A stretch of 64,000 nucleotides of DNA from a virus, in the IMG/VR virus record IMGVR_UViG_3300043409_002109, positions 86,206 through 150,205 of that record. One strand, written 5' to 3'. Position 1 is the stretch's first letter. The number at the start of each line of letters is the position of its first letter. Of the stretch, positions 7,529 through 64,000 are shown in pieces. The notes under the pieces are model-generated. The model had not been told where the DNA came from and made no database searches. It saw nothing but the letters and a program-made list of their open reading frames with translations. The position numbers and the translations under genes were made by a program.

Positions 7529-7828
7529 TAATTTTTCGAATATCCTTTTCGGATATAAGGGACTGTGCATATCGCAATCCGGAGGACTTCCGCCAGTACT
7601 CTCTGATCGTTCCTTTTTTAGATCAATAGAATCTGTTAATCCGCTTGTATATAGCAATAAGCTATTGTAAGGATTAGCTTTAAAGAATTTATTTTCTTTA
7701 ATGCATTTAAGGATGAATTCTAGATCACTATCTTTTGCTTTCTCTAACTCGAAAGACAAGAAATCTAAATCTACTTCATCTATTCGCTCTGTATAAAGAC
7801 ACTCTTTAACCTGTTGTCTTAGGTTCAT
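7505..7828 (-). CDS. hypothetical intron-associated ORF, 107 aa
   Basis: Not recognised; no LAGLIDADG, GIY-YIG, HNH or PD-(D/E)XK motif is visible. Residues 1-70 look like a normal acidic helical protein. The last 35 codons run through the 5' part of the intron core, and the stop lies in the P element, so this end is RNA-constrained (an ATCC-GAAA-GGAT hairpin sits inside the coding region). This resembles ORFs that extend into group I intron cores. The start follows a GGAG-like SD. Confidence 0.5.
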   Translation of the reverse strand: MNLRQQVKECLYTERIDEVDLDFLSFELEKAKDSDLEFILKCIKENKFFKANPYNSLLLYTSGLTDSIDLKKERSESTGGSPPDCDMHSPLYPKRIFEKLHELLETP

Positions 7829-7931
7829 TTAATACTCCGTGACCGGGTTGTTAACTTGCAGAAACTGCAAATTTAATTGATAATTCTTTTAGAAGACCGG
7901 GCTTGATGCCCATTACCTTATGGATGAGAAC
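7829..7931. promoter_or_regulatory. divergent intergenic region
   Basis: Separates the minus-strand 107-aa ORF from the plus-strand virion genes. It contains two small hairpins (TTGCAGAAACTGCAA and GGGCTTGATGCCC). Promoters for both directions are expected here, but no convincing -35/-10 pair was seen. Confidence 0.3.
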
Positions 7932-8345
7932 ATGGCTACTTATACTTCTGTTGCAAAAGTGCACCCTAGTTCGGCGCGGGTACTTTCAATTGCTGATGTT
8001 AGCGACGGCGATCGAATTGACTTTATTGAGGCCTTAGGTCGCCCAGCCAGAAAGGTCCAGTTCTACATGACTGATGCCGCTGATGAGGTAGGGTACACTC
8101 TTAACTCATTAAAGAAACTACGCACTGGACGTGAACACGAGATAGTTCTGTCTCAAGCAGAGCGATTCTTTGGAACCTACAACACAGAAGTTGTTGAGGT
8201 ATGGTCAGGGGCAGCCTCCTTTCCGAGCCTTACTAGCACTGGCGCAACTACCTTAGAAACTGCTGATGGTATTTCTATTCACAGTATTCAGATTGATTCC
8301 TTGACTCTTTCTGTTGGAACTACAATTTCAATCGTGGTGTGGTAA
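7932..8345 (+). CDS. probable virion structural protein, 137 aa
   Basis: Not assigned to a family. Beta-rich, Ser/Thr-rich composition with few Cys and an N-terminal ATYTSVAKVHPSS suggests a structural or head/tail decoration protein. The ATG at 7932 is preferred over 7920 because GGATGAGA sits correctly before it. Its stop overlaps the next gene's ATG (TAATG). One of few plus-strand genes, with higher GC than its neighbours, as expected for late virion genes. Confidence 0.6.
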   Translation: MATYTSVAKVHPSSARVLSIADVSDGDRIDFIEALGRPARKVQFYMTDAADEVGYTLNSLKKLRTGREHEIVLSQAERFFGTYNTEVVEVWSGAASFPSLTSTGATTLETADGISIHSIQIDSLTLSVGTTISIVVW

Positions 8346-9301
8346 TGCCAGGGCCTATGTCTTTGAGTACGCTGCTTCGTAGTCAAATATCAACAGTATC
8401 TAATACTGTTGATACGTTAGCTGTTGATGCTGCTGAGATTATTGTAAATGACCCCTATGCTTGGGGGACCGGAGCAGATGGTAATATCTCATTAGATGGT
8501 ATAACTACTGTTACTATTGGTGGGGTAAGTCATGCACCGTCAGGAAGCACTTATACTTTGACTCGGCCTTTGAACGCTAGAGTGCTTACTATTAGCAATG
8601 GTGTAGCTTTAAATTCTTCAGGCTTCTTAGTCCATTGTTGGGAATTAGCAGGTACCGGTACTATAAAAGATCGAGGAGCTAATGCCTCTGGCGGTACAGC
8701 GGGGATGGGTCTTACTGCGAGTGGGACGACTCAAAGAACTTCTGGTAACGGTGGGGCTGGGGTATCTTCACCTGGCGCTGGTCAAGCGGGTTCAGCAATC
8801 ACTAGCGCCCTTGGTGGTGGAGGAATGTCTGGAGGCACCGCAGGTGCTAACCCTGGTGGTGGAGGGGGCTCTCCAACTGTGCCTACTGCAGCTGTAGGGT
8901 TTCCTTCTTCTTCGATCTCTACTTGGGCGTTTCTAAAAGGTGTCAATGGTACTGCTTACGCAGGTGGTTCCGGTGGTGGTTCAGGGGCTATCGCTGTTGG
9001 CGCCTCTGGAACTTCTGGTGGCGGTGGTGGCGGTGGTGGGGTGATAGGTGTATTCGCACGGAAATCAGTAAGTACCATTACGATTAACGTCGGTGGGGGT
9101 AACGGGGGGAATGGGACTTCCAGCAGTGGTCAGGTCGGTGGTGGCGGTGGTGGTGGCGGTGGGTATGTTCTTTGCGTATACAAGGATGGCGCAGCTCCCA
9201 CCATTACTGTGGGTGGCGGTACCGCTGGCTCTGCTGCTGGAGGCGCGAGCGCTGCTTCGAACGGTTCTTCTGGCAGCAGCACTGTAATACAGATGTCTTA
9301 G
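8345..9301 (+). CDS. glycine-rich tail-fibre adhesin-like protein
   Basis: About 318 aa. After a 100-residue beta-rich N-domain the protein becomes extremely Gly-rich with runs of five to nine Gly separated by short hydrophobic strands (VIGVFARKSV, TITINVGG, GYVLCVYKDG). That pattern is like the polyglycine-II bundles of distal tail-fibre adhesins (Gp38-type of T-even relatives), where loops between Gly runs contact the receptor. Start taken at the ATG coupled to the upstream stop (TAATG); the upstream GTG GTA is less likely. A 7-bp inverted repeat ends the gene. Receptor-binding role is inferred from composition only. Confidence 0.65.
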   Translation: MPGPMSLSTLLRSQISTVSNTVDTLAVDAAEIIVNDPYAWGTGADGNISLDGITTVTIGGVSHAPSGSTYTLTRPLNARVLTISNGVALNSSGFLVHCWELAGTGTIKDRGANASGGTAGMGLTASGTTQRTSGNGGAGVSSPGAGQAGSAITSALGGGGMSGGTAGANPGGGGGSPTVPTAAVGFPSSSISTWAFLKGVNGTAYAGGSGGGSGAIAVGASGTSGGGGGGGGVIGVFARKSVSTITINVGGGNGGNGTSSSGQVGGGGGGGGGYVLCVYKDGAAPTITVGGGTAGSAAGGASAASNGSSGSSTVIQMS

Positions 9302-10341: not shown

Positions 10342-12005
10342 TAGACGAGAGCCCCTGTGGTAGCGGCCGATCCGTTAAATCCGGTGGCCAGTTCTGGTAT
10401 TAGGACGGCTGCGATTGCCATCATGAGGAATGTCCCGACGATTGTGCTTCCAACTCGTTTAAGCACCTGACCGTCCGAGACGGCACCCATTGTAAGGCTA
10501 GTAGGGCCTGAAGTTTCTCGGATTCCTCGCACATCAGGATTGGGATAGGTACCGCCCAATTGCCCACCGGCTGCGCCGGTAGGTGTCCGGCTGTCACTCA
10601 GACGTGAATCATCACCAGCAGCAACCGTTCCTGCAGTAGTTCCAACATTCAATATCGCCGCCCCACCAAGTCCAAGTGTAGTGCGGGCCGTTGATGCGTC
10701 AGCATCATCAATCAGTGAAAGTCCGTATGCTGTAGGGGTAGTACCATTAACCCGAGTCACCGTAGCAGCTGGCCAATCACCTGTAATATCACCTGTCGAT
10801 GTTTTGGATAAGGCTGCGATAGTCCCTAGTGTGGGAAGCCCAGAAAGATCTGAATAGGCTCCGGTTGCTGCGACTGTAGCGAGTCCAAGATTCGTACGAG
10901 CCCCTGCCGCTGTACTGCTTCCAGTGCCACCATCTGCTACTGCTACGTCGGTGCCGCCAGGCCGATAGCCGGCATCGGCGTAGGTCTTGGTCGCCTTCTG
11001 CGTGGCTAGCTTAGCGTCTGAGTCGGCAGCGAGAGTACCGTCCGTGTCTACAGTGACAGATACTCCACCGATCTTGGCTACCCCGGGATTTGGATAAGTT
11101 CCAGATAGGTCTCCAGCAGCAGCTCCTGTTGGTGCACGCGAATCAGTAAAGCGTGAATCATCGCCGGCCGCCACAGTGCCTACAGTGGTTCCAACATTTA
11201 GCACGGCTGCTCCTCCAAGCCCAAGATTGGTCCGTGCAGTGGATGCACTTGCGAGGTCGGAGAGGTTGGAGGCTTTCTGCGCTGCGCCTGTAATCCGGGA
11301 GTCATCTCCTGCTGCGACCGTACCAGCGGTTGTCCCTACGTTAAGGACGGAAGCCCCGCCAAGACCGAGATTCGTTCTTGCGTCAGCAGCGCTACTAGCC
11401 CCAGTACCGCCATCTGCTATGGCTACATCTGTTGAGCCTGGGGCGTAGTAGTCTGTACCGGCGGCGGCGGCCGATAGAATGCCAGCCGCAGCCTTAACAA
11501 CCGTAGCTGTAAGACTGGACCTCTTAATAAGTTTGCCAGTTGTCCCATCAAAGATGGAAACTTCAGAATCGACAGAAGAGGAGGGGCCGACAACATCTCC
11601 ACTTCCGCCCCCGCCCCCACCTGTGGCGTTTAAGGTTGTACCACTCATAGAGAGATTAGTCCCAAGAGTTATTTCTTGTGCTACTCCGCTACCTCCACCC
11701 GCCCCTCTTCCGAGAAGTCTCTCTGCAGTAAGAGAAGTTATGGCCCCTATAGAGTGAGTGTGAGAAGCTGGAGTCTGAGGATCTGCTAAAACCCCAGATA
11801 AGCCAGTTACATCAATTTCATCGGCTCCGCCGTTTTGATGTGACGTTTTATGAGCTGCAGCTGTTGCAGCAGTAGAGATGGCAGGGATGCCATCTGCGTC
11901 AAAATAAAGATAACCCTCTTCGTCAGACCCTATCTTTTTATATTCTATTAGAGAATTCTTATAGGGAGGCGAGGTCCGTGCAGTGCTAACTTTTTGGCGG
12001 CGCAT
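10341..12005 (-). CDS. repeat-containing tail fibre protein, 554 aa
   Basis: Side tail-fibre type protein. Residues about 200-500 contain at least three near-identical copies of a unit (TARTNLGLGGAAVLNVGTT, then GTVAAGDDSR), plus degenerate copies, and two PTGAAxGxLxGTYPNP units. Such repeats form trimeric beta-helical shafts in phage fibres. The N-terminal 120 residues (YKKIGSDEEGYLYFDADG) likely attach to the baseplate; the C-terminus has a hydrophobic segment (GTFLMMAIAAVLIPELA). It lies inside the dnaE interruption. Confidence 0.75.
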   Translation of the reverse strand: MRRQKVSTARTSPPYKNSLIEYKKIGSDEEGYLYFDADGIPAISTAATAAAHKTSHQNGGADEIDVTGLSGVLADPQTPASHTHSIGAITSLTAERLLGRGAGGGSGVAQEITLGTNLSMSGTTLNATGGGGGGSGDVVGPSSSVDSEVSIFDGTTGKLIKRSSLTATVVKAAAGILSAAAAGTDYYAPGSTDVAIADGGTGASSAADARTNLGLGGASVLNVGTTAGTVAAGDDSRITGAAQKASNLSDLASASTARTNLGLGGAAVLNVGTTVGTVAAGDDSRFTDSRAPTGAAAGDLSGTYPNPGVAKIGGVSVTVDTDGTLAADSDAKLATQKATKTYADAGYRPGGTDVAVADGGTGSSTAAGARTNLGLATVAATGAYSDLSGLPTLGTIAALSKTSTGDITGDWPAATVTRVNGTTPTAYGLSLIDDADASTARTTLGLGGAAILNVGTTAGTVAAGDDSRLSDSRTPTGAAGGQLGGTYPNPDVRGIRETSGPTSLTMGAVSDGQVLKRVGSTIVGTFLMMAIAAVLIPELATGFNGSAATTGALV

Positions 12006-12342: not shown

Positions 12343-13602
12343 CTAACTTTGAAGCATTTCTTCTGTAAAGATTAGTGGTGTCGCAGCGCGACCTATATTT
12401 AGAAATCTACTAAATAACAAATTGTATTTTATAGGATCTACATGCGTTATGCCAAGTGCATAACATACGAGACTTCCTGCGGCTGAGCCTCGGCCTGGTC
12501 CACTTACTACATCTAATTCATCTTTAGCGTAATTAATAAACCTACTTACAATCAGGATATAATCTGAGAAACCCATTTTTTTAATTGCTTTTAATTCTAG
12601 TGTTAGTCTTTCTCGATATTCTAGAGGAGGTTTTTCTCCAAATCTTTCTGTAAGTTTTTGCTTAGAAAGTTTGGCTAAATATTCCCAGCTAGTACATTCT
12701 AAAGGCAATGGATATTTGGGGTAGTGGTTGGCTGTATCTTTGAAGTAGCTCTTATCATCTATCATATTGGCAATATGAATTGTATTTTGTAAAGCCTCCA
12801 TTGGAATTCCCTGCTCTTGGGCGCGCAACATCATCCACTCTGGAGAACCAACATGTACATCTATTTCTCCAAAAGTAAATCTCTTAGGATTATACATCGT
12901 ATCATTAGTTTGCATACACAATGCCTGTTCATGCAAGGACTTATGTTCTGGGTGAGTATAGTGCGCGTCGTTAGTAAGAATCAAGGGAAGATTTTTTTTA
13001 GCAGCAATTTCCATAAGACCTTTATTCAAAGCCTGCTGCTCCTCATCCCTATGGAGCTGTAGCTCAATAAAGAATCGATCCTTGAAGATATCGCAGTGAC
13101 CATCGATGAGGCGCTCCGCTTCATCTCTACGGTTAAGGAGAATGAGTTTACTGAATGCGCTTCCGAGACAGGCTGTAGTTGCGATGATGCCTTCGTTGTG
13201 CTCCTTGAGAAGAGCGTCATCGGCCCTTGGCTTGTAGAACATCCCTGAGGTATAGGCGTTGGAGCTGATGGCCATAAGGTTTTTCCAACCCACAGCATTT
13301 TGAGCTAATAGAACTAAATGATAGTACTTCTCCCCCATGGCATCTACTTCGCGGATAGAACGATCTTGGACGGTATAGTAAGCCTCTAAACCTAGGATAG
13401 GTTTTATACCAGTCTTCTTGCATTCTTTATAGAATTTGTATGAGCCTGCGAGGTTACCATGATCAGTGATGGCACAGCTTCTCATTCCCATTTCTTTAAT
13501 CTGAGAAGGGAGTTGGTGTATCCGATTAATCCCGTCTAATGTGGAGGTCTCGAAATGGCAATGAAGATGACAGAAAGAATCTGTATTATCTGAAGTAGTC
13601 AT
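12343..13602 (-). CDS. dnaE: DNA polymerase III alpha (DnaE), N-terminal exon
   Basis: Encodes the PHP domain and the start of the polymerase palm. Motifs: HLHCHFE at 12-18, ITDHGNLAG, GLEAYY, ANDAHY-type LTNDAHYTHPEH, and the palm GPGRGSAAGSLVCYALGIT followed by VDPIKYNLLFSRFLN, which in other DnaE proteins directly precedes the catalytic PDxDxDF. Instead the frame runs 13 unrelated codons past NIGRA to a stop at 12343. Exon 1 probably ends at 12385. The unspliced product (419 aa) has no catalytic aspartates. The PHP residues look intact, so a proofreading or pyrophosphatase activity is possible. Confidence 0.88.
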   Translation of the reverse strand: MTTSDNTDSFCHLHCHFETSTLDGINRIHQLPSQIKEMGMRSCAITDHGNLAGSYKFYKECKKTGIKPILGLEAYYTVQDRSIREVDAMGEKYYHLVLLAQNAVGWKNLMAISSNAYTSGMFYKPRADDALLKEHNEGIIATTACLGSAFSKLILLNRRDEAERLIDGHCDIFKDRFFIELQLHRDEEQQALNKGLMEIAAKKNLPLILTNDAHYTHPEHKSLHEQALCMQTNDTMYNPKRFTFGEIDVHVGSPEWMMLRAQEQGIPMEALQNTIHIANMIDDKSYFKDTANHYPKYPLPLECTSWEYLAKLSKQKLTERFGEKPPLEYRERLTLELKAIKKMGFSDYILIVSRFINYAKDELDVVSGPGRGSAAGSLVCYALGITHVDPIKYNLLFSRFLNIGRAATPLIFTEEMLQS

Positions 13603-36388: not shown

Positions 36389-37054
36389 ATGAGTGAATAT
36401 GCAGGCGTAGCTGAAGGTTGGATTAAAGAACGGTTTCTTCGTCAGCGTCGATTTATCCCTGACTTAACTGTTGGAGCAGAATCTTCAGACACAATTTCTG
36501 TTGCTGTACAGCTTCGTACATTCGAAGCTTCTGGTAATGAGTATGTAGATGCAGACTCTTCTATCGCATGTCTTTGTACCCTTATCAATAGCAAGGGCGA
36601 GGATGTCGGGGCTGGTAAACTTCGTACTGCTGTTGTAGCAGGCGGAGCCGCTGGTAACATAACAGTAACTGGTATTGCTACATTAGATGAGCTTGTCAGT
36701 GTAATCCACTGTACTGCTGGTGGTGCTGTTGATGGTGATTTCGCTGATTTAACTTCTCAGTTTACAATTTCAGCTGCTAACACTATCAATAACACTGCTG
36801 GTACCAACACGACTGGTAACAAACTTATTGTTATTTACCGTGATCGTGCCGAGTTCCATCTCGCTGAGAGTGGTGCAGGAACTGCCGTAACTGGTACAAC
36901 CCGTGGGTCCTTACTCGTTACTTCTAGTGCTGCAGGTGCCTTCACAATTGACGTGAAGGATGTTGTAGGTGCTTCTGGGGCTACCCTCTATCTTAAGATA
37001 GAGCCCCTTAACGTACCTGGTTATCCAGCTTATACAGCAGTAACTTTTAACTAA
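36389..37054 (+). CDS. probable virion protein, 221 aa
   Basis: Start chosen at 36389 (MSEYAGVAEGW) because GGAG lies six bases upstream; 36353 is the longer alternative. Beta-rich, Ala/Thr/Gly-rich with repeated Ig-like strands (DTISVAVQLRTF, NKLIVIYRD, GATLYLKIEPL). Highest codon regularity in this region. An isolated plus-strand gene among minus-strand metabolic genes, ended by a 12-bp UUCG hairpin. Likely an abundant head or decoration protein, though no family is recognised. Confidence 0.55.
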   Translation: MSEYAGVAEGWIKERFLRQRRFIPDLTVGAESSDTISVAVQLRTFEASGNEYVDADSSIACLCTLINSKGEDVGAGKLRTAVVAGGAAGNITVTGIATLDELVSVIHCTAGGAVDGDFADLTSQFTISAANTINNTAGTNTTGNKLIVIYRDRAEFHLAESGAGTAVTGTTRGSLLVTSSAAGAFTIDVKDVVGASGATLYLKIEPLNVPGYPAYTAVTFN

Positions 37055-37072
37055 TACTTAGTTAAGTTATTC

Positions 37073-37100
37073 CAATGGGCGGCCTTCGGGCCGCCCATTG
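37073..37100. terminator. 12-bp TTCG-loop hairpin
   Basis: CAATGGGCGGCC / GGCCGCCCATTG capped by TTCG, between convergent genes; followed on the plus strand by TCGTTTAG. Strong terminator for the virion-type gene. Confidence 0.65.
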
Positions 37101-37104
37101 TCGT

Positions 37105-37338
37105 TTAGTCTTCAAGATTAATAATAGACAAGAATTCATCTGGAAAATATTCTTCGAGAAGGTTAGAAATACTATGCTTGAGGGTGAAGCTCGAAGAGGC
37201 ACATCCTTTACAAGCTCCTAGCATTCGAATGTAAACGAAACCATTGCTCGTTTCTACGAGTTCTATGTAGCCGCCATCTTGTTCGACCATAGGATTTATT
37301 TCTTCTAAGAAGATTTCTTGGAGTACGAGGAGGGTCAT
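37105..37338 (-). CDS. NifU C-terminal-domain-like Fe-S scaffold, 77 aa
   Basis: Small Nfu-type protein: EEINPMVEQDGGYIEL followed by VYIRMLGACKGCASSSFTLK, with the CxxC that binds a 4Fe-4S cluster between two subunits. It may deliver clusters to the Cas4-like nuclease or protect host Fe-S enzymes; unusual but known in phages. Confidence 0.85.
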   Translation of the reverse strand: MTLLVLQEIFLEEINPMVEQDGGYIELVETSNGFVYIRMLGACKGCASSSFTLKHSISNLLEEYFPDEFLSIINLED

Positions 37339-37548
37339 TTAGCTCTCACGAGGGTTAAGTTCGAGTACTTCACCAATGCAAATGATATAGCCTAAGCAAT
37401 CACAGGCCTGACAATCTTCTTTTTGGTGCTCATTTCGATTGCAGAATAGCGTTCTTGAAAGACCGCTATAGCAAGAGTTTGTATGATAGTGGGTTTTGTA
37501 TCCTCTATGCATACAAGCACCACATGGTACTTTAATTTTAGCTATCAT
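37339..37548 (-). CDS. Cys-rich small protein, 69 aa
   Basis: Eight or more cysteines in CGAC, SCYSG, FC, CQACDC contexts suggest zinc or Fe-S binding. Directly coupled to the NifU-like gene. Function unknown. Confidence 0.55.
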   Translation of the reverse strand: MIAKIKVPCGACMHRGYKTHYHTNSCYSGLSRTLFCNRNEHQKEDCQACDCLGYIICIGEVLELNPRES

Positions 37549-37647
37549 TTATATTCCTTGAGAACCTAAATCCCAAATAAGACATGTATAGAGAATTAGG
37601 AATAATATTCCTAAACCTATTTCTCCTGTGTAATCATGATTATCCAT
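37549..37647 (-). CDS. small single-span membrane protein, 32 aa
   Basis: ORF between the macrodomain gene and the Cys-rich gene: MDNHDYTGEIGLGILFLILY with one membrane helix. Stop directly abuts the next ATG and the start lies within the end of the previous gene. Too short for most gene callers. Confidence 0.5.
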   Translation of the reverse strand: MDNHDYTGEIGLGILFLILYTCLIWDLGSQGI

Positions 37648-37649
37648 AG

Positions 37650-38105
37650 TTATAAGTCGTAGATATGGATAGCACGATTATTGAAAACATTTTCTATAAT
37701 TTCTTCAATAAGCTTCCAATCACCACCTGCTCTTCCGGCACCAATTCTTCCACTTGCTACTATTTCTTCATCAAGTATTTTCCAAATGCTTAAACGATCT
37801 TTAAGCGCTTGAAGACTTGTATCTAAAGCATAGTAATCGAGATGACATTTATCTAATCCATATCGATATTGAGTATAGAGATTAACAAGAATCCGATTGT
37901 CTTTTAAAGCATGAGTATAGGAAGTAGTACCTAATTTTCCTAAGTCTCCTTTTGGAGTCTGAAGATCTGCTCGATAAGCTTCCGGATATCGCTCGCGCAT
38001 TTCTTTGGCTAAGCCTGAATTCATGGTGCAAAAACAATTAGCACCATGGAAGATTACTTTAGCTTGAGAGTCAAAGACATTACCTCTGACATATTTAATT
38101 GGCAT
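37650..38105 (-). CDS. macrodomain (ADP-ribose-binding) protein, 151 aa
   Basis: Matches Poa1p/TARG-like macrodomains: YVRGNVFDSQAKVIFHGANC, then MNSGLAKEMRERYPEAYRAD and SGRIGAGRAGGDWKLIEEII, the loops that hold ADP-ribose. It may remove ADP-ribose-1''-phosphate, O-acetyl-ADP-ribose or protein-bound ADP-ribose. Near NAD+ salvage genes, so it could help recycle ADP-ribose made by host defences. The catalytic subclass is uncertain. Confidence 0.8.
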   Translation of the reverse strand: MPIKYVRGNVFDSQAKVIFHGANCFCTMNSGLAKEMRERYPEAYRADLQTPKGDLGKLGTTSYTHALKDNRILVNLYTQYRYGLDKCHLDYYALDTSLQALKDRLSIWKILDEEIVASGRIGAGRAGGDWKLIEEIIENVFNNRAIHIYDL

Positions 38106-38197
38106 TTTAGAATCTCATTTTTCAGTTTTTGGAATTAATAGGAAGTGCTTTTGTCGAAAATTGAAATTTATAAAATTCTAATTCCTTAATTCGCGAA

Positions 38198-38980
38198 TCA
38201 TATAGGAAACTTGTGAGGACTAAAGATAGAGGGGCAATAAGAAACAGGATTCTTCACAGAGAGACTTCTTATAGGCGCCCCCTCTTCTAGAATCAAAGCA
38301 GTTAAGGCCCCACCATGAACACAACCAGTATCCAAGCCAATAGCATAAGGAAAGATACGAGGTCCCATAGAATTCAGAAAAGGCTGATGACCAAAGATTA
38401 CTGTACCATATCTACCTTCGTATATCTCCGCCCAGTAAGTATCATATTGAGTAATACTATGTATATCTTTAACAGATTTTCCTGTTGGAGTAATGTATCT
38501 GGTACGTAAAATTTTCTCTAAAGATTTTCTAGGAGTGCTCGAAAGTTGGAAAAGATCTTTAATTAGGAGTTCGTCCTTTAGATCTATATGTTCAGGCGCG
38601 ATACCTCCATGAACACACATGTATTTTTGATCATTTATTATAAATGAATAATAAAGGTATCCTTCTAATAACCAATCTATGTCTTCTCGGGTTAAGCCTT
38701 CCTTTTCGAAGTCTTCTACCCATGTCATGAGTCTACGCTCTTCTTCGGTCTTTATGTACCACCTGTAATGCTTATCTTCATGATTAGCAAATATGAATTT
38801 AACATTACAGTTCAGGTTTTTTAAGATCTGAATAATTTGATGGCCGTATCCATTCCTCTTATGGAATAAATCACCGAGACTAATAAAAGTATCTTCTTGA
38901 GTTAATTCTAATGTCTTAAGAAGGATCTGTAATGTTTCTATACATCCATGAATATCACCTATACAAATTGTTCTTCCCAT
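38198..38980 (-). CDS. PPP-family Ser/Thr phosphatase-like / ApaH-like enzyme
   Basis: 260 aa with the full PPP signature: GDIHG at 8-12, GDLFHKRNGYG, NHEDK, HGGIAPEH, FGHQPF. ApaH-like and lambda-phosphatase-like enzymes share these. Substrate could be phosphoprotein or dinucleoside polyphosphate. It lies between the 172-aa unknown and the macrodomain gene. Confidence 0.8.
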   Translation of the reverse strand: MGRTICIGDIHGCIETLQILLKTLELTQEDTFISLGDLFHKRNGYGHQIIQILKNLNCNVKFIFANHEDKHYRWYIKTEEERRLMTWVEDFEKEGLTREDIDWLLEGYLYYSFIINDQKYMCVHGGIAPEHIDLKDELLIKDLFQLSSTPRKSLEKILRTRYITPTGKSVKDIHSITQYDTYWAEIYEGRYGTVIFGHQPFLNSMGPRIFPYAIGLDTGCVHGGALTALILEEGAPIRSLSVKNPVSYCPSIFSPHKFPI

Positions 38981-38982
38981 AA

Positions 38983-39501
38983 TTATTCCTCTATAGTATG
39001 AGAAATAATACCGTATTTACTTAGTTCTCTTTCATTATTCTCTTGAAGAGTCTTATGTTCTATAACAATGTCATTAACTAAATGTATTACTTTTAGTTCT
39101 ATTAATTCAATAAGATCATTAAAGTAACCTTGGCTAGCATTTTGGAATTGAATCCATTCTTCAGGAGATAAATAATTGGTTTTACGATGAATCCCTCTTA
39201 CATTAAGAAGAAATGTTAACATCATTTCTTTACCAATATCTTGACAAGCTCCGGGGATATATTCTTCAAGAACAATTAAACATTTTGGCATACCATCTTG
39301 TTCAATAATCTTCCAGATATCTGTTTTATGCTCTTCTAACAATTGTAGATCATTAATTATATGAGCAACTCTATTAGTTTCTTGATGAAGGATTTCTGCT
39401 AGCTCTTTTAGAGAGTATTTTTTCTCTTTGATTATTAGGAATCCTAATAAATGAAAGAAGTTTGATAGTAGTTGTCGAATATTCATTGGTTTATTCCTCA
39501 C
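38983..39501 (-). CDS. hypothetical protein, about 167-172 aa
   Basis: Not recognised. The N-terminal 60 residues suggest a winged-helix (YSLKELAEILHQETNRVAHIIN); the rest is helical. Met6 (39486) is an alternative start with less overlap with the hairpin upstream. Could be a regulator of the following phosphatase gene; no direct evidence. Confidence 0.5.
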   Translation of the reverse strand: MRNKPMNIRQLLSNFFHLLGFLIIKEKKYSLKELAEILHQETNRVAHIINDLQLLEEHKTDIWKIIEQDGMPKCLIVLEEYIPGACQDIGKEMMLTFLLNVRGIHRKTNYLSPEEWIQFQNASQGYFNDLIELIELKVIHLVNDIVIEHKTLQENNERELSKYGIISHTIEE

Positions 39502-39504
39502 AGC

Positions 39505-39529
39505 GAAGGGGAGCCATAGGCTCCCCTTC
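39505..39529. terminator. 11-bp hairpin after the NAMPT gene
   Basis: GAAGGGGAGCC / GGCTCCCCTTC with an ATA loop; separates the NAD+ salvage genes from the next group. Confidence 0.5.
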
Positions 39530-39545
39530 TTGTGGTACTGATAGT

Positions 39546-41042
39546 TTACTTATTTAAAGTTTCTTGAACAGTCATTAGTTTTTCTTTCATTTCTGGAGAA
39601 AGAACTTCGTTGAACCGACTACATTCTTTCCAACTCATGCGTGCATGAGTACGTACTAGGTTGAAGTAGTCAAACTGATAGTCTACTGGACCTTGATCCC
39701 AGATGACTTCAAGAAGATCATCTAGTGTTTCAAGGTAAGGGAAAACCATCAAGTTAGCTTTATTAAGATCATGGCTTTCATAACAAACAGAGAAATTGCC
39801 AGGCAGACTGATTTTAGTTACGTCACTTGATGGACGCTTCATAATGGGTTTTACAGTACCATCTTGAAGTTCTATTTCACATGCCTTGATAGCAGCCTTT
39901 AAGGTGTCCCTATTCTGTTTCTGAAGTAGTCCGCCACCCATACCATAGGCAACACACTGAGCGCTATAGCCAGCTCTGTAAACAGCATCTGCGATGGTTC
40001 CTATATCTTGCAATTCAAGACCATCACCTTGGATAAGACCAGCGCCATTGATAACTCGGTAACCCAAAGAGTTTTTGGTGCTGCCAAATGCCTTTTCAAG
40101 ATAGAATAATCCATCTAGCACTGCCTGCTGGGGGTCTCCCGAATCAGGTCGTACTACAAAGAACTGGTTCTTTGCGCGGCAAGGCTCAACAATAAGAGGA
40201 AGAATTTCTTTAAGAAATCTATGATAATCATAAGAATCAGCAACCACAGAAAGGATAGCACCCTCAGGAGACTTCTCAATAAGATTGAGAATAGCTTTGA
40301 GTTCGGAATCCCAAGTGGTCATAACAGAATGCTCTGTGGCAATGACAGACTGACCGATAGGAACCCCAGCATTCCACTTGGTAGCAAGCCAGCCTGCAGT
40401 CATGGTATCTGTGCCTTCAAAGAACAATAAATGGCCAATACCTGTAACCATAGCAGTCTCAGCGGAACTCGTGCCGCGACTGCCGAAGTCATGGAACCTA
40501 CTATCAAGTAGAAAGTGAGAGTCAGGATCTACAGTCTTTTCAAAGTAGAACTCAAGACAATCACGGACTAAGGCACTCTTAGTAGCAGTACATGAAGGCG
40601 ACCATAGCCGCATTAGACGAGATTCCAAGAATGTAACTAATCCCTGATAGGGCGCTTTGGCAGAAATGACAAAGCAAGGTATGCCTGGGTGTACGCACTG
40701 TCCTTCTCGAAGAGATCGGATTGTGACAGGCCAATACCCATTGTTCTCTTCAATTACCTTAATAAACAGATCACGAGGATATTGATACTGTGTACCAGCC
40801 ACACCATGATGGGCCAAGTATTCATCAGCTTCGTAAATATCTTCCATTGTAATGGGGACACTCAAGAAGGATTCGTACATCCATCTCATACCGAAGAAGA
40901 CAATTCTACTATCTTCTATGGGGAGTGTATTACCTCTGAACGTGAAATAAGCATTAATTCTTTGAATATCTGGAGAATATTCTTCAGGATGACCCATTTT
41001 GTAAGAATCAGCATCTAATAGTGTTGGAATATGTATATTCAT
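39546..41042 (-). CDS. nadV: nicotinamide phosphoribosyltransferase (NAMPT)
   Basis: Converts nicotinamide and PRPP to NMN. 498 aa, normal length. Signatures: LLDADSYKMGHPEEY, HDFGSRGTSSAETA, EGTDTMTAGW, ATEHSVMTTW (catalytic His), VADSYDYHRF, VVRPDSGDP, INGAGLIQGDGLEL, YGMGGGLLQKQNRDT. These cover the phosphoribosyl pocket and the Asp that selects nicotinamide. Preceded by the 23-base leader repeat. The next upstream gene is the NMN adenylyltransferase, giving a complete two-step NAD+ pathway. Confidence 0.92.
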   Translation of the reverse strand: MNIHIPTLLDADSYKMGHPEEYSPDIQRINAYFTFRGNTLPIEDSRIVFFGMRWMYESFLSVPITMEDIYEADEYLAHHGVAGTQYQYPRDLFIKVIEENNGYWPVTIRSLREGQCVHPGIPCFVISAKAPYQGLVTFLESRLMRLWSPSCTATKSALVRDCLEFYFEKTVDPDSHFLLDSRFHDFGSRGTSSAETAMVTGIGHLLFFEGTDTMTAGWLATKWNAGVPIGQSVIATEHSVMTTWDSELKAILNLIEKSPEGAILSVVADSYDYHRFLKEILPLIVEPCRAKNQFFVVRPDSGDPQQAVLDGLFYLEKAFGSTKNSLGYRVINGAGLIQGDGLELQDIGTIADAVYRAGYSAQCVAYGMGGGLLQKQNRDTLKAAIKACEIELQDGTVKPIMKRPSSDVTKISLPGNFSVCYESHDLNKANLMVFPYLETLDDLLEVIWDQGPVDYQFDYFNLVRTHARMSWKECSRFNEVLSPEMKEKLMTVQETLNK

Positions 41043-41047
41043 TTTAA

Positions 41048-41070
41048 CCTCTTTATGAGTTTTGTTACGA
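41048..41070. repeat. 23-bp leader repeat, copy 1 (before NAMPT)
   Basis: Minus-strand sequence TCGTAACAAAACTCATAAAG plus AGG just upstream of the NAMPT ATG; identical to 42177-42199. It includes the SD (AGAGG). Probably a shared regulatory leader. Confidence 0.7.
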
Positions 41071-41084
41071 TTGCGAGCTTATGC

Positions 41085-42170
41085 TCAGGTTCGAAGACAC
41101 ATTTCAGCTATAATTGAACTGTGATCTTCGAAGATTATCTCAGACATATTGCCTAAGATTTCGTTTAGCGGAATGAATTTGCTCTTAGCAGCATCATCAT
41201 CAGCACGATGAGTAACTTCTAGAACATCAGGGATGCGCCACAAGTAACCTTCTGTGATTGTACGACCTCGTTGACTCCGCAAAGGATGATCAAAAGATCG
41301 TACTTGCTGGATCCATGCTGAATCCATTGGTACTCGGGTTGTTCCATTCTTTGTATGTCTGAAGATCTCAATATGAGTCTCTTCTTGAAGTTCACGTTCA
41401 GCTGCTGCTCTTTTGGTTTCATTAACATTCAAGAACCCACCTGGTAGCGCCCAGAGGCCCATACCAGGACGATGGCGGCGCTGAATCATAAGTACCATTC
41501 CACGCCATAGCACTATGTTATCTACCGTTTGAAAAATAGGAGGATAGGGCAAAACCCGATATGGCTCTTGATAGTTCTGTTCAAATTTATACTCTTTGCG
41601 TAGCCAATCAGCTTTAGTATCTAGAATCCAGAAATTGAGATAATTATTAACCCCAGGAGAACAATCTGGATAGGTCTGATTAAGAGGGCCAGTAAGAAGT
41701 TCTTTGCGTACATCAGTGGCGTTATAGATTTTAGTCCCTAGTTCAACGGGACTAATCTCTATACGATTCCATTGAGGGAATATCTTAAGATAATAACTAG
41801 TATCATCTTTATTAAAACCATAGAGAGTGATTTCGAAGTTATTTTCTTCACCGCTTTTAGACCATAGTCTAAGATTTTTCTTATTGTTTTCTATGGCATC
41901 TTGGATAGCATATTGCCATCGAGTATCTGAGTAAGGATAATCTCGGATACCTTGAAAGAACATTCTTTCGAACTCTTCTTTTGTAAACGCTTGGTGAAAC
42001 ATTTCAATACGTTCATGAACATTGAATGGACATCTAGTATTAGGTGCCTGATAGGCAGAACCTAATAAGATTATGACAGCATCTTGTTCTGCAAGTATCT
42101 GGCGAACAACTGCTTCATGGCCCTTATGAAGGGGAGAAAATCGGCCTATGAAGACCCCGACACGCATCAT
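41085..42170 (-). CDS. nadM: bifunctional NMN adenylyltransferase / NUDIX hydrolase (NadM-Nudix)
   Basis: 361 aa. N-terminal nucleotidyltransferase (residues 1-180): VGVFIGRFSPLHKGHEAVV with the HxGH motif, and NATDVRKEL near the end of the fold replacing ISSTxxR. C-terminal NUDIX domain (205-355) with GGFLNVNETKRAAAERELQE then ETH. Same fusion as cyanobacterial and phage KVP40 NadM. Makes NAD+ from NMN and hydrolyses ADP-ribose or similar. Together with NAMPT this forms a salvage route like the reported NARP2 counter-defence pathway. Confidence 0.9.
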   Translation of the reverse strand: MMRVGVFIGRFSPLHKGHEAVVRQILAEQDAVIILLGSAYQAPNTRCPFNVHERIEMFHQAFTKEEFERMFFQGIRDYPYSDTRWQYAIQDAIENNKKNLRLWSKSGEENNFEITLYGFNKDDTSYYLKIFPQWNRIEISPVELGTKIYNATDVRKELLTGPLNQTYPDCSPGVNNYLNFWILDTKADWLRKEYKFEQNYQEPYRVLPYPPIFQTVDNIVLWRGMVLMIQRRHRPGMGLWALPGGFLNVNETKRAAAERELQEETHIEIFRHTKNGTTRVPMDSAWIQQVRSFDHPLRSQRGRTITEGYLWRIPDVLEVTHRADDDAAKSKFIPLNEILGNMSEIIFEDHSSIIAEMCLRT

Positions 42171-43820: not shown

Positions 43821-44162
43821 TTAGGTCTGTAGTTCTATTGGAGCGCTAAATAGTAATTGAGTTAAGAATAATTCAAAGTCTTCTCTATAACCTTCAGGCA
43901 ACCAAGATAGAGGAATATTAATAATCTCTTTGTCTTTAATCGATCTTTTATGATCGTATTGACTTACCCTCAGCCAAACTTTTTCTACGCTTTCCGCTCT
44001 TAGAATATATGCTATCTGTCCATATTTTTCATGTTTAACATAAGTTCTGACTATAATAGCATCTTTAGTTTTATGAATGTTCCAATTAGCTTGTTTAAGA
44101 ACTTTAGGTTCATAGAGGAGTTCATCAAAAACTTTTTCTATATTCTCTGGCCTAGGCATCAA
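43821..44162 (-). CDS. hypothetical protein, 112-113 aa
   Basis: Not recognised. Mixed alpha/beta. Coupled to the RNA ligase gene by a four-base overlap, so it may be an accessory to it. Confidence 0.5.
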   Translation of the reverse strand: MMPRPENIEKVFDELLYEPKVLKQANWNIHKTKDAIIVRTYVKHEKYGQIAYILRAESVEKVWLRVSQYDHKRSIKDKEIINIPLSWLPEGYREDFELFLTQLLFSAPIELQT

Positions 44163-45565
44163 GATACCTCTTCTATATCGATGTAGTTATCATCTTCTTT
44201 GGTCAAACCTTCGAGATATAAGAATTTAAAAGCTTTATTCTTAAAAGTTCTCATCAATTCGGGGTGAGTAACTTCAATGCAAACTCCTTCAGAAATATGT
44301 TCTGGGAATTGCTTTGAAGGCTGTTCTGCAAGATTATTAACTATTTCTAGGAAGTCTATTTTGCCACCTAGAGTCAATTCATCTACAGTTCCGTAAAACA
44401 GGCGGGGAACATGATACAGACCTAATACAGAGCATCTAGCAAGACGCTGGGGGTAGCTGAGATCTATTTGGTGTCCATCTGGATTAGTATGAGTAATCCG
44501 ATAAATCCAAATTTGATGTTCACCAAGTTCTGCGTCACAGTTATAAGAATATTCCATTTTAGAACCATTCATATAGCTTTTATACTGTTTAAGAATCTCT
44601 GCTCCAATACCATCTTTTTTTACATTATGATGAAATAGAGGAGAATTGGGCGCCTGATATCCTACGATTTCATAGTAAAGAGTTTCTCCTTTATGGAGAA
44701 CGCCTGTTAAAGATTCATGAATCCTTTCTCGGAATCCATTGCCCTTGTGGTATCCATCTACGATTTTATCAATGAAGGCCACGCGACGACTGCCGCTAAT
44801 AGTTTCATATTCTTCAGTAGTAAGATCTAAAGCTTGGAAAATCTTATCAAAAGGATTAATTCCAAAAGCTATATTGTTACATATCTGTCCTAATCGGATA
44901 GCTAAAGTTTGGTACCAATTGATTTCACGCTCTCTTCGAACTAAGACGTTACCAGTTCGACCTGAAGTTCCATGAAGCTTTGCAGTTATAAGTATCTGAG
45001 CATCCTTAGGGATTCTCTTATAATTGTATTTAAAGTTTTCAGTATCAAAATGCTCAATAAATGTTGGCGCCCAAGCAAGCTTACGTTTGATTTTCTTTTC
45101 TTTATTATCTTTGTTTTCGTTTAGTCTCTGCTGGGCAGGGCTAACATATCTTTCGCAGATCGGTCTGCCATTCAATTCAGTGAATAGATAACCAGGGTGA
45201 ACTGTAGAAAAATCAAAGCCTGTATACTCTAGGCTAGATAAGGGCGCGATGTATCCTTCTGATACCTGTCCACGAAGTTTAATGCATCGAATACGACCGC
45301 TTTCTTCGAAGAATCCAAATTTATTTGCTTCTTTATTAGGACGAACTGAAGCCTCTGTTGTACTAGAATATCTATATTCACTATTTTCATATAGAAATTC
45401 ATTAGAGAATTTACCTCCTTCTGGGAAGAAGCAAGCCATATCTCCAACTTTATAATCAACGGTACTAATAACTTGTGAACCTGCGATATGAACAATTTTT
45501 AGTCCGTTATCACTATTGGGATGAGGCTCTACAGCAGTTATAACTGTAAAAATTCCGCTATACAT
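44159..45565 (-). CDS. RNA ligase (Rnl5/DRB0094-like), 468 aa
   Basis: ATP-dependent nucleotidyltransferase-fold ligase. Motif I ITAKLHGTSGR with Lys196 as the AMP acceptor, motif III YYEIVGY, motif IV SEGVCIEV, motif V FKNKAFKFL. The N-terminal 130 residues (VEPHPNSDNGLKIVHIAG, VGDMACFFPEGGK) form the OB-like domain found before the catalytic domain in the Deinococcus RNA ligase DRB0094. It would seal RNA breaks, for instance tRNAs cut by host anticodon nucleases. A 2H phosphoesterase gene lies 1 kb upstream. Confidence 0.82.
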   Translation of the reverse strand: MYSGIFTVITAVEPHPNSDNGLKIVHIAGSQVISTVDYKVGDMACFFPEGGKFSNEFLYENSEYRYSSTTEASVRPNKEANKFGFFEESGRIRCIKLRGQVSEGYIAPLSSLEYTGFDFSTVHPGYLFTELNGRPICERYVSPAQQRLNENKDNKEKKIKRKLAWAPTFIEHFDTENFKYNYKRIPKDAQILITAKLHGTSGRTGNVLVRREREINWYQTLAIRLGQICNNIAFGINPFDKIFQALDLTTEEYETISGSRRVAFIDKIVDGYHKGNGFRERIHESLTGVLHKGETLYYEIVGYQAPNSPLFHHNVKKDGIGAEILKQYKSYMNGSKMEYSYNCDAELGEHQIWIYRITHTNPDGHQIDLSYPQRLARCSVLGLYHVPRLFYGTVDELTLGGKIDFLEIVNNLAEQPSKQFPEHISEGVCIEVTHPELMRTFKNKAFKFLYLEGLTKEDDNYIDIEEVS

Positions 45566-59569: not shown

Positions 59570-59938
59570 TTATCCTGTATAGCTCATCCCATGTAGTTCT
59601 TTCATTCTGATGTGATCAACAATAGCTTTTGGATCATCAATCGAGATGAAAGATACCGGGCATAGTTTCGGGCTTAATTTTACTCTAATAATATTAAGCC
59701 ATTCACCTTCAGAATTGATAACAATTACTGGAGTATTGCAAGGAATATATTCGAATTCAATTAGCTCAAAGATTTCTTTCTGATCATGATTTATTAAGAT
59801 CAGATTAATCTTTTGATTCTCTAAATAGAATTTAGCTTGTGGAACTGAATTGGCTAAGAAGATATCTTTGTAATGAAGATGGGCGCGCCATAGTTCATAA
59901 ATATCACTGTATTTAATTCCAAAATAAAGAATCTTCAT
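59570..59938 (-). CDS. receiver-like small protein, 122 aa
   Basis: Alternating strand/helix pattern (KILYFGIKYSD, KINLILINHD, TPVIVINSEG, CPVSFISIDDP) of a CheY-like fold without the phospho-acceptor Asp context. Function unknown. Downstream of the tRNA-like cluster. Confidence 0.45.
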   Translation of the reverse strand: MKILYFGIKYSDIYELWRAHLHYKDIFLANSVPQAKFYLENQKINLILINHDQKEIFELIEFEYIPCNTPVIVINSEGEWLNIIRVKLSPKLCPVSFISIDDPKAIVDHIRMKELHGMSYTG

Positions 59939-59957
59939 TTATTATTATTCCTAAAAG

Positions 59958-60032
59958 GGGTGTAGCTACTAGGATTTGATACCTAGAACTCGGGAGTTAT
60001 GCCTCCTGCCTCTACTTTTGGGCCATAGCTAC
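59958..60032 (-). tRNA. tRNA-like structure, CAU-type anticodon, non-canonical
   Basis: Seven-bp acceptor GTAGCTA/TAGCTAC, D-arm GCC...GGC, T-arm CTAGG/CCTAG but with an 8-base loop TATCAAAT. The anticodon arm GGAG/CTCC closes a six-base loop GCATAA with CAU but no U33. 3' end reads ACCC rather than CCA. Could be a decayed tRNA-Met or a structure built to escape anticodon nucleases. Confidence 0.45.
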
Positions 60033-60044
60033 ATGAAAGAGTGG

Positions 60045-60125
60045 TGGGGCTTGAGGTAGGATTTGCACCCACTGAGACTAGTATTGCCGGATCAACCGGT
60101 GCTCTACTATACGAGCATCTCAAGC
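60045..60125 (-). tRNA. tRNA-Ser-like (UGA), non-canonical
   Basis: Perfect acceptor GCTTGAG/CTCAAGC with encoded CCA, D-arm GCTC/GAGC, anticodon loop GTTGATC (UGA) on a short CCG/CGG stem, 14-base variable region, T-arm GTGGG TGCAAAT CCTAC with G replacing the invariant second U. Plausible class II tRNA-Ser but degenerate. Confidence 0.5.
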
Positions 60126-60134
60126 TATAACTGA

Positions 60135-60238
60135 GGAAGTTGTTGGGAATCGAACCCAAATCAATCGCCGCTAAACCAAGCACCTACTCGTCTGATCTAT
60201 CTGATCATAAGGCGATTCCGTGAGGTGCATTAACTTCC
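60135..60238 (-). tRNA. oversized tRNA-like structure (104 nt)
   Basis: Acceptor GGAAGTT/AACTTCC and T-arm TTGGG TTCGATT CCCAA are clear, but the interior is about 30 nt too long. It contains GCACCT/AGGTGC and ATCGCC/GGCGAT pairs that cross (pseudoknot), plus a TGATC/GATCA hairpin. No CCA. Could hold a small insertion or be a tRNA mimic. Confidence 0.4.
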
Positions 60239-60249
60239 ATAGAAAAGAG

Positions 60250-60337
60250 TGATACCTGTTCAGATTCGAACTGAAATTGCCTATTAGGGAGTCGAACCCC
60301 TCGCCATATCTAGCGGCGTCCACACGCCCAGGTATCA
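60250..60337 (-). tRNA. tRNA-like structure with long acceptor (88 nt)
   Basis: Nine-bp acceptor TGATACCTG/CAGGTATCA, T-arm TTCAG TTCGAAT CTGAA, D-arm-like GGCG...CGCC and an extra AGGGG TTCGACT CCCT hairpin in the variable position. No CCA. The long acceptor and large variable arm recall tRNA-Sec topology, but no UCA anticodon loop was found. Confidence 0.4.
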
Positions 60338-60344
60338 TGTAGAG

Positions 60345-60900
60345 AGGTCACCGCAACCCTCTCAATGGTAGGTAAAGTTTTATGCCCATTTAAGGGGTGC
60401 CGGATTCCTACTTTGTCTTTAACCGGTACGGTGGTTTCGGGACTATGTTCCTCACCCGAATGTGTGTCCTACAGCAATCCGACACTTTGAGTAGTCCATT
60501 AATAATCTTATTGGGTCTTCTCCTTTCGGATATTACTACTAAAATCAGCCAATAAGATAAGATCTTACATGTCTCCGGTCAAGATCTTGTGACTTAAACA
60601 CGACATGCTATGTCTCCCTACTCGTACATGGTCTATCCGGGAGCAGATAGTATATGATGCAACTACAAAGGATCTACGAGTAATACCTATTGTAAAGGGG
60701 CTCTAGGGCCAACAAGGTGCTGAGAAGTAGTTGCATAACTCCATGTTTAAGCTTAGGAATTTTATTCAGTGACCCTGTTCTTGACGCCGCTTAAGACCGA
60801 TTTTGGTTCTTCGTGTCTACTTCATTATTCATTGAGGGAGCCGCGGGATCACTCTTAAACCTTATTTGTGTTTGATTAAAACACTTTCAGGACAATTAAG
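60345..60900 (-). ncRNA. candidate large structured RNA A
   Basis: About 550 bases without an ORF. Many helices: ATGCAACTAC/GTAGTTGCAT (60657-60666 with 60727-60736), CTTATTGG/CCAATAAG (60507-60514 with 60549-60556) enclosing TCC-GAAA-GGA read on the minus strand, TTCGGG/CCCGAA (60436-60460), GTGCCGG/CCGGTAC, GACAT/ATGTC, AAGACC/GGTTCTT. Helix density and a GNRA loop on the minus strand argue for a folded RNA next to tRNAs, as with GOLLD- and ROOL-type phage RNAs; identity not established. Confidence 0.5.
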
Positions 60901-60912
60901 TTCATCCGTTGG

Positions 60913-61296
60913 CTATAGATTTTTTAGTAATGGGCAAACATATTCAAGTTGAAAATGTTTGATATGTTCTTTGGTAGTAAAGGTCTCGCAATAGTTTTCT
61001 AGAAACTCTTGATGTAGATTCATTTGATATAGATAATATACAAATGCCTCGAATACATCAGCTTTAGGTTTGAGCCCTTCAATTTCAGAGATATATCTAC
61101 AAATGTATAGGTTCATCCACTCATTAGAATTTAGTTTATCTTCTAAGTGGTTGAGTGAACTTCTGCCTTTAAATCGCGCGCGCAAGAACAGTCTACAATG
61201 CAATCGAACGATAGCATCACCAGCCCAAGCCATACGAAGACGTTCACCTTGATTGGAGAAACCTTTAGTGGCTTTAAAGTTCTGTAGATGTTTCAT
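60913..61296 (-). CDS. RNase III-like (Mini-III-type) protein, 127 aa
   Basis: Single RNase III catalytic-domain size, no dsRBD. RLRMAWAGDAIVRLHCRLFL matches the LxxxGDAxxxLxxxxxL signature, and KADVFEAFVYYLYQ matches the DxFEA(x)xGALY signature with the second acidic pair. Mini-III enzymes mature structured RNAs. Placed between two candidate structured RNAs and next to tRNA-like elements, it may process them. Catalytic competence is uncertain because the first Glu is replaced by Ala/Trp context. Confidence 0.7.
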   Translation of the reverse strand: MKHLQNFKATKGFSNQGERLRMAWAGDAIVRLHCRLFLRARFKGRSSLNHLEDKLNSNEWMNLYICRYISEIEGLKPKADVFEAFVYYLYQMNLHQEFLENYCETFTTKEHIKHFQLEYVCPLLKNL

Positions 61297-61309
61297 AATA
61301 ATTCCGAAT

Positions 61310-61915
61310 AGAGTTAAAGGACAATAAGAATTATTATAATGAGCATGAAATCACTTTAGAATGGATGGCGTAGGAATTGGCACGTCACCTACTATGAGCA
61401 GCATTGCCCTCGCGCTCTTTATCGATTTTCTTTTGAGTATAACATAGGTAATCGAAAAGACCTTGTTACACTATGCCTTTAATAGCCATTAGGCATTTGA
61501 ACGGTATGCTACCGGATTTCTCCGTTGTTCTTTCACTAGTCTCTTACTATATAGTTATCGTTCTACCCGGAATACTAGTGGAACCCAGTAGGCACATGAG
61601 GTAACTATATAGCTCAATTTGTTATACTCTTGTTGATTGAGTTTAAATAAGTATGTCTTAGAACATAGTTCTCTGAGAAACATTTTAAGTGGCTCCCAGG
61701 CATCCGCACTTATCTAAAAGGGTGAGTACTTGTATACACGCTTAACATGCGCTTTGTCGTAATACCCACTCAGGGGCATAGAATAGACTTCTGGTGGGAG
61801 CAACCCCATTGTGTTGTATATCTATTCATACCCGTTTCAAGTATTGGCTAGCTTCCCTTGAAGTTTGGATCTTACTCATTGCCGGGCTCTAAACCGGTCA
61901 ATATCGTACTCAGAA
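61310..61915 (-). ncRNA. candidate large structured RNA B
   Basis: About 600 bases without an ORF. An 11-bp helix CTATATAGTTA/TAACTATATAG (61547-61557 with 61602-61612) encloses a 44-base tRNA-like loop. Other stems: ATGCCT/AGGCAT (61473-61496), AACGG/CCGTT, GGTA/TACC, ACTAGT/ACTAGT, AAGTG/CACTT, CTTC/GAAG. Similar size and helix style to region A. Confidence 0.45.
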
Positions 61916-61916
61916 A

Positions 61917-62105
61917 TTATTTGTTGTTACTAGGCGGTTGAGTGTCCCAATAGTTAGGATCATTAATCCGTTCTTCTTCAATTGCTTCTTCAACTGCTTC
62001 GGCAATTAGCTGTTGAACAATCTCGTTATCACGAATCTGTTCACGAGTTGCTTCGGAGTGTGTTTCTCCATAAGCGACATATTCTCTTAGTACATAAAGT
62101 TTCAT
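61917..62105 (-). CDS. hypothetical acidic protein, 62 aa
   Basis: Not recognised. Helical, Glu-rich (LIAEAVEEAIEEERIND). Four-base ATGA overlap with the 60-aa gene upstream. Confidence 0.5.
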   Translation of the reverse strand: MKLYVLREYVAYGETHSEATREQIRDNEIVQQLIAEAVEEAIEEERINDPNYWDTQPPSNNK

Positions 62106-62430: not shown

Positions 62431-62502
62431 TGGTGCAGGGATAGGATTTGAACCTATATAGAGAGTGCTTGCTCTTGCCGTACCTTTTGGACTACTACCT
62501 GC
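62431..62502 (-). tRNA. short tRNA-like gene (72 nt), isotype uncertain
   Basis: Encoded CCA with A73, acceptor GCAGGTA/TCCCTGC (T-C mismatch at position 6), D-arm GTC...GGC, T-arm (A)TAGG TTCAAAT CCTA(T). The anticodon arm AGAG/CTCT closes a six-base loop CAAGCA without U33; GCA (Cys) or AGC (Ala) are possible readings. Probably expressed but non-standard. Confidence 0.5.
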
Positions 62503-63155: not shown

Positions 63156-63159
63156 GGAT

Positions 63160-64000
63160 CACTCTTTAAAAGGGTGTAGACCTAGCCTTGGCTTTCTGAT
63201 TTCCAAGAATCATTCTACGTGGAGACTGCTCGTTGTGACGATTGGTGTCTCTTAATACTAATCCCTGCCTTATCAGTTATGTGAGATACCTGATGTTGGG
63301 ATGGCGAACTTTCTCTGGCTCACATCAGCACTGTTCGGTAGTACCTCGGGCATAGCTCATCACCCGTATTGATTAGTCGCGATGGTTTTTAAGGCCATGT
63401 AATCTTTGGATTTGTATTAAAAGGTAAGTACCTAAATCCCAAGGCCCCTGATTTTAACTTACAGGTAGTAATAGAACTTTAGTGGAAATCCACTCACAGG
63501 TGAGATACTCAACACTGTTTCCAACTTACTTGCGATCTCGGACCTATTCTATTTGATGAGCATTGTTAGTCTTTCCTAACAGCCAATTGGTTTGTTTCTG
63601 TCCAATAACATTTTAGTTCTTGTAACTAACAAGCAAGTAGAACATTAGCTATTGTTTCCCGCGAATTGCTGGTTGACTCTATTATTCAGTCGGTGCGGAG
63701 CCTATAAATAGGACGCAGCTGATATCTAAGAGTTTATATTCTGAATTAGAATATCCGGCGCATTTCTACCTGATTCGCATTAAACAATGTATTGATACCC
63801 AAAGGGAAATTTCAAAATACATTGTATGTGTGTTCTAGCCTTTTCAGTGCACTAAGATCTATTCGACTTTAACAAGACTATAGGAACACCACTATAGAAT
63901 GCGTAGAATCATTAGCATGACCCGTCTTTAACTTGAGATCAAAATTTACAGGAGATTATACAGGTTCGTCCGGGCGCCCTTGATACCTGAATCAAATTTT
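63160..64000 (-). ncRNA. candidate large structured RNA C (runs to window edge)
   Basis: More than 800 bases with no ORF over 60 codons. Stems include ACAATGTAT/ATACATTGT (63784-63792 with 63817-63825), TATATTC/GAATAT, TGACT/AGTC, CCTA/TAGG, CTTGT/ACAAG inside GTTC/GAAC, and GTTAG/CTAAC whose minus-strand loop is GAAAGA. May contain more than one RNA; the strand is inferred from neighbours. Confidence 0.4.

Follow-up and report, generated by a model that had tools for sequence, protein, structure and literature searches.

In the few phages for which RNA-seq has been done, long noncoding RNAs rank among the most abundant transcripts, and only a handful of them have been assigned to families. 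One of these, ROOL RNA, forms a homo-octameric RNA nanocage. Both ROOL and GOLLD are of phage origin and are found in the neighbourhood of tRNA islands (PMC12286853). Staphylococcus phage K has two further long RNAs, lnc001 and lnc002, which are encoded in gene-free stretches of 0.6-1.2 kb beside same-strand tRNA genes and for which there is RNA-seq evidence (PMC9241854), while in Vibrio phage ICP1 an ORF-less space of ~1 kb gives rise to a noncoding transcript of ~800 nt, which is the most abundant of all the phage transcripts (PMC7567579). Using ORF, codon and fold analysis we examined a gene-free stretch with the phage K layout, that is, an ORF-less stretch of 0.5-1 kb on the same strand as adjacent tRNA-like genes. 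This stretch, termed region A (60345..60912, 568 nt, minus strand), is a candidate noncoding RNA of ~0.5 kb. Our tentative reading, held with slightly less than even confidence, is that its minus strand encodes a long noncoding RNA of roughly 500-570 nt that belongs with the orphan phage RNAs found beside tRNAs, a grouping that is descriptive and not a homology family.

The window analysed comprises the rightmost 64 kb of an IMG/VR virus contig of 150,205 bp (G000), and positions refer to the window unless stated otherwise. This contig encodes a large terminase, portal, major head protein and tail sheath and therefore derives from a myovirus, with a structural module on the plus strand (about 2.7-72 kb of the contig) and an early/metabolic arm on the minus strand, which reaches the contig end and holds region A. 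Relatives were gathered using the terminase (n=20) and a nucleotidyltransferase (n=52) as baits, while the DNA polymerase used as bait gave no match in IMG/VR. The terminases of the nearest relatives found are about 48-58% identical to that of G000, with none >30% identical in the phage-record collection. We also observed that DNA polymerase III alpha is encoded in two halves, as separate genes ~5 kb apart (5126-7282, 7322-7647 and 12343-13602), and that the DNA between them carries a group I intron (86.8 bits in Rfam) and tail-fibre-like ORFs. Metabolic and RNA genes at 1306-2400, 39546-41042 and 44159-45565 comprise homologues of IMP dehydrogenase, nicotinamide phosphoribosyltransferase and RNA ligase, and three ordinary tRNAs lie at 53.8-55.4 kb.

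The initial annotation had described a gene-free stretch in an otherwise packed genome, and this was borne out, as the longest ATG/GTG/TTG ORFs within region A are of 41 and 52 aa, both on the plus strand, in a contig that is ~91% coding. Region A ends 2 nt from the ARAGORN boundary of a tRNA-Ser and on its other side abuts the stop codon of a 127-aa ORF. Its best-frame codon score is -0.04, compared with 0.18 ± 0.05 (minimum 0.084) in 200 coding windows from the same genome, and together with the short frames this indicates that region A is genuinely non-coding, being neither a missed nor a recently broken gene. Frames with recoded stops were also considered and rejected, since reading TAG as Q or TGA as W opens no long frame, and a decayed protein gene as the origin of region A was ruled out by the codon signal.

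While the position of region A and its absence of coding signal are direct observations, its helices are predictions from an energy model. On the minus strand the predicted fold contains about 20 helices and includes a closed domain (60352..60845), in which a closing set of 8+7+6 bp pairs 60845-60819 with 60378-60352. The two outer closing helices (60845-60838/60359-60352 and 60836-60830/60367-60361) have mean pair probabilities of 0.95-1.00, and the third, inner helix is formed by 60824-60819/60378-60373. Inside this domain there is a perfect 10-bp helix, ATGCAACTAC/GTAGTTGCAT, which spans a 60-nt loop (60736-60727 with 60666-60657; P 0.97), a second perfect 10-bp helix, ATCTTATTGG/CCAATAAGAT (60558-60549 with 60514-60505), which encloses (60505..60558) the GAAA loop CCGAAAGG at 60530-60523, and a 10-bp helix with one G-U pair, GTGTCGGATT/AATCCGGCAC, which contains inner stem-loops (60485-60476 with 60406-60397; P 0.99). 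The helices named in the initial annotation, including a 10-bp pairing over 60 bases and a GAAA loop, were thus recovered on the minus strand.

Region A is one of several gene-free stretches in this arm of the phage genome, and regions B, C and D likewise show no codon signal. Region B (61297..61916, minus strand) has an MFE z of -2.0 and is closed end to end by a predicted 9-bp helix (61915-61907/61310-61302). Region C (63156..64000, minus strand) runs to the contig end and with a z of -0.7 folds no better than shuffles. Region D lies outside the window (contig 507-1420, L002, minus strand, 914 nt), has a z of -4.9 to -6.0, matched by 0/60 shuffles, and gave no Rfam match; a gtatac/catgta-rich repetitive stretch at L002:1900-2100 yielded spurious microRNA and HCV-CRE Rfam hits, which are a low-complexity artefact. 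In two relatives, the arm adjoining the structural module contains gene-free stretches of ~1-1.35 kb (G011, L073:5220-6400, 7860-9190 and 10350-11700; G020, 103045-104078), whose gene-strand z values lie between about -4 and -6.7, with no Rfam family and no similarity to each other. Region A is among the weaker members by energy, region D and the G011 and G020 stretches being far more strongly structured, and region D appears to be the better candidate for a giant RNA. The arm of the relatives that holds gene-free stretches also encodes a large protein with a DxDGD motif of the two-barrel RNA polymerase type (G011:2437-4707, G020:98565-101477, G004:18831-23000, G003:52763-57055 and G006:16977-19931), the G011 copy matching the RdRP family PF05183 with an E of 0.003; a separate DxDGD protein is found in the structural module of G000 (contig 36472-41688).

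We assessed the folding energy of region A using dinucleotide shuffles, of which 13/250 fold as well as the minus strand (z -1.8), while the plus strand has a z of -0.6. The folding energy of region A is thus only marginally better than that of shuffles, and it lies inside the range of coding segments of the same genome, which gave z values of -0.75 ± 1.5, down to -3.4. The number of confident helices was 10, compared with 4.2 ± 2.4 in shuffles (1/120 reaching 10) and a mean of 6.0 and maximum of 12 in coding segments, and closure over nearly the full length was seen in 5/120 shuffles and 4/60 coding segments, both of these statistics having been picked after the fold was seen. For calibration we determined the minus-strand z of transcribed phage RNAs, which was -1.35 for lnc001 and -4.9 for lnc002 of phage K and -2.6 for the ICP1 RNA, and given this spread a z of -1.8 is compatible with a real RNA but no proof of one. 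The description of region A as a large ornate RNA in the initial annotation is upheld as regards an RNA-like gene-free stretch directly upstream of tRNA-like genes, but the term 'ornate' goes further than the marginal folding energy and the negative homologue searches below allow.

Searches for homologues of region A by blastn against phage and plasmid records, by DNA search of 20 related phage contigs, and by blastn and nhmmer against all loci collected found none, and single-sequence covariance models of two internal subdomains had no match in the relatives. Exact DNA patterns gave four 17-base matches, one extending to 19, none of which is a homologous stretch. The near-identical relative L136 gives no covariation because it differs from L137 by only 3 bases in 12.4 kb.

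Several lines of evidence favour an orphan long noncoding RNA. There is no coding signature in any of the four regions of this largely coding genome, the confident helices outnumber those of shuffles, and both region A and region B close almost end to end. Furthermore, in regions A, B and D folding is better for the minus strand, on which the genes lie, than for the plus strand, a tRNA-like array adjoins region A, and transcribed phage long RNAs share both this layout and this range of folding z. The reading is weakened by a folding energy within the coding-sequence background, by promoter and terminator signals not above chance and by the lack of homologues in the searches above. The same folding energy, together with the failure of any relative searched to carry region A, is also what would be expected of a non-functional or decaying spacer left in the variable right arm after loss of genes or tRNAs, with helices arising by chance pairing. 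Hardly any of the genes located beyond about 120 kb in this arm are conserved in relatives, and the tRNA-like neighbours look degenerate. However, this compact genome retains three or four stretches of comparable size, devoid even of residual coding periodicity, and the helix number and end-to-end closure of region A exceed those of shuffles, and we therefore regard such a spacer as somewhat unlikely, with roughly a one in four standing among the explanations considered.

Downstream of region A, and also on the minus strand, lie four tRNA-like elements. The nearest, a tRNA-Ser-like gene (aga; 60251..60342), was called by ARAGORN, scores below the Rfam tRNA threshold, has an acceptor that pairs better as GAUACCU/AGGUAUC and possesses a 4-nt anticodon-arm loop. 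It is followed by an element (60126..60238) with a GGAAGUU/AACUUCC acceptor, a canonical T arm, TTGGGTTCGATTCCCAA, and a non-canonical middle, by another (60045..60125) detected by relaxed ARAGORN as Ser tga with a 5-nt loop at the anticodon position, and by a fourth (59961..60032) with a 6-nt anticodon-arm loop and an Rfam tRNA score of 28.6 bits (cut-off 29). All four have paired acceptor and T arms but an odd anticodon-arm loop (4-6 nt) or middle, and they score below the Rfam threshold, unlike the three ordinary tRNAs noted above. A further tRNA-like element at 62435-62501 has good acceptor and T arms and a non-canonical anticodon-arm loop, and the elements at 59961-60342 and 62435-62501 are possibly degenerate tRNAs or decoys. 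The bordering of region A by tRNA-like genes, as first proposed, was confirmed, with the qualification that these neighbours are non-canonical.

This arrangement would also suit a 5' leader or precursor of the tRNA-like array, which guides its folding or processing and is then discarded, with no function of its own. Consistent with this, region A ends just 2 nt before the first tRNA-like gene as delimited by ARAGORN, is on the same strand, and has no terminator-like site between. Nevertheless, at 568 nt it is far longer than ordinary tRNA leaders, and region B is similar in size yet leads a protein gene, which makes a leader unlikely.

Alternatively, region A, being gene-free and situated close to the contig end in a variable arm, could function at the DNA level, for example in replication initiation as an origin, in regulation or in recombination. 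However, it has no repeat arrays and no notable inverted repeats besides the helices, and no promoter-like or terminator-like sites above chance level, so we consider a DNA element highly improbable.

We finally compared region A with known RNA families. There was no match among 4227 Rfam families, including group I introns, even at E 5, and across regions A, B, C and D and the relatives both gathering and permissive thresholds returned only tRNAs, tRNA-like elements and chance matches. The suggestion that region A is of ROOL or GOLLD type did not survive, as covariance-model searches of region A and of the contig matched neither (gathering cut-offs of 99.1 bits for ROOL, RF03087, and 150 bits for GOLLD, RF02032, the latter for the conserved 3' half). 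ROOL had no match at E<=10 in G000, G004, G011 or G020, with control genomes that held no positive, GOLLD had none in G000 at E<=10, and a permissive scan of 59900-62000 revealed neither at E<=5. A strongly diverged ROOL or GOLLD RNA, despite the similar size (the ROOL model has 574 positions) and tRNA-side position, is therefore barely credible.

Between regions A and B lies the 127-aa ORF (60913..61296, minus strand), a candidate RNase III/Mini-III-like protein with the motifs AWAGDAI and KADVFEAFVYYLY. Pfam matches were to PF20614 (E 0.006) and PF00636 (E 0.009), both below curated cut-offs, and a BLASTP match covered 104 aa at 22% (E 0.15). A Mini-III HMM ranked this ORF first of 562, yet with an E of 0.27, and the GDA and FEA motifs are colinear; the B. 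subtilis Mini-III sequence that served as bait had been checked against PDB 4oun. No match was found in ncbifam or PHROGs, no homologue in IMG/VR, phage records or the 20 related contigs, and an AlphaFold model of low confidence (pLDDT 54) had no significant fold match; likewise, no homologue was found for a neighbouring 134-aa protein. The 127-aa protein may possibly be RNase III/Mini-III-like, and a processing enzyme of this type between two structured RNAs would be attractive if true.

For an orphan long noncoding RNA in region A, we infer that it would be transcribed, processed, stable and functional. A right-arm transcript would cover, in order, region B, the 127-aa gene, region A and the tRNA-like cluster, and RNase P, by cutting the first tRNA-like gene at its 5' end, would free the 3' end of the region A RNA. 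A double-strand-specific RNase III, either that of the host or possibly the 127-aa neighbour, may trim this RNA at its long helices. The body of the RNA would fold into a single closed domain, with 60845-60830/60367-60352 as the helix that holds it, and the RNA would be stable and accumulate, as do those of phage K and ICP1. A broader conjecture, which we consider quite improbable, is that this large-myovirus clade carries several fast-evolving giant RNAs per genome (regions A-D here, three of ~1.2 kb in G011 and one in G020), which differ in sequence from one member to the next and are located in the arm beside the structural module. In this conjecture, one pair here would lie on either side of a phage-encoded RNase III-like enzyme, by which both the pair and tRNA-like decoys would be processed. 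If regions A, B and D are real RNAs, the clade would carry several per genome with no Rfam counterpart, and their function could be approached by comparison rather than from single examples.

In comparison with described systems, region A is of the same size class as ROOL and GOLLD and shares their phage origin and tRNA-side position, although it has no covariance-model match to either and these families are distinguished by a conserved pseudoknotted architecture. The three transcribed RNAs of phage K and ICP1 had no ROOL or GOLLD match at E 0.01 or better, which shows that absence from Rfam is normal for such RNAs. The ICP1 RNA resembles region A in being ORF-less, in lacking an Rfam match and in its modest z; however, ICP1 has no tRNAs, whereas region A adjoins tRNA-like genes, and transcription has been shown for the ICP1 RNA while region A is a candidate predicted from sequence. 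The phage K RNAs, known from RNA-seq where region A is known from its DNA, showed no sequence similarity to it, and the fold of lnc002 is much stronger (z -4.9 versus -1.8), but like region A they match neither ROOL nor GOLLD. The arrangement matches that of lnc002, which lies just upstream of three same-strand tRNAs, as region A likewise lies upstream of its tRNA-like cluster.
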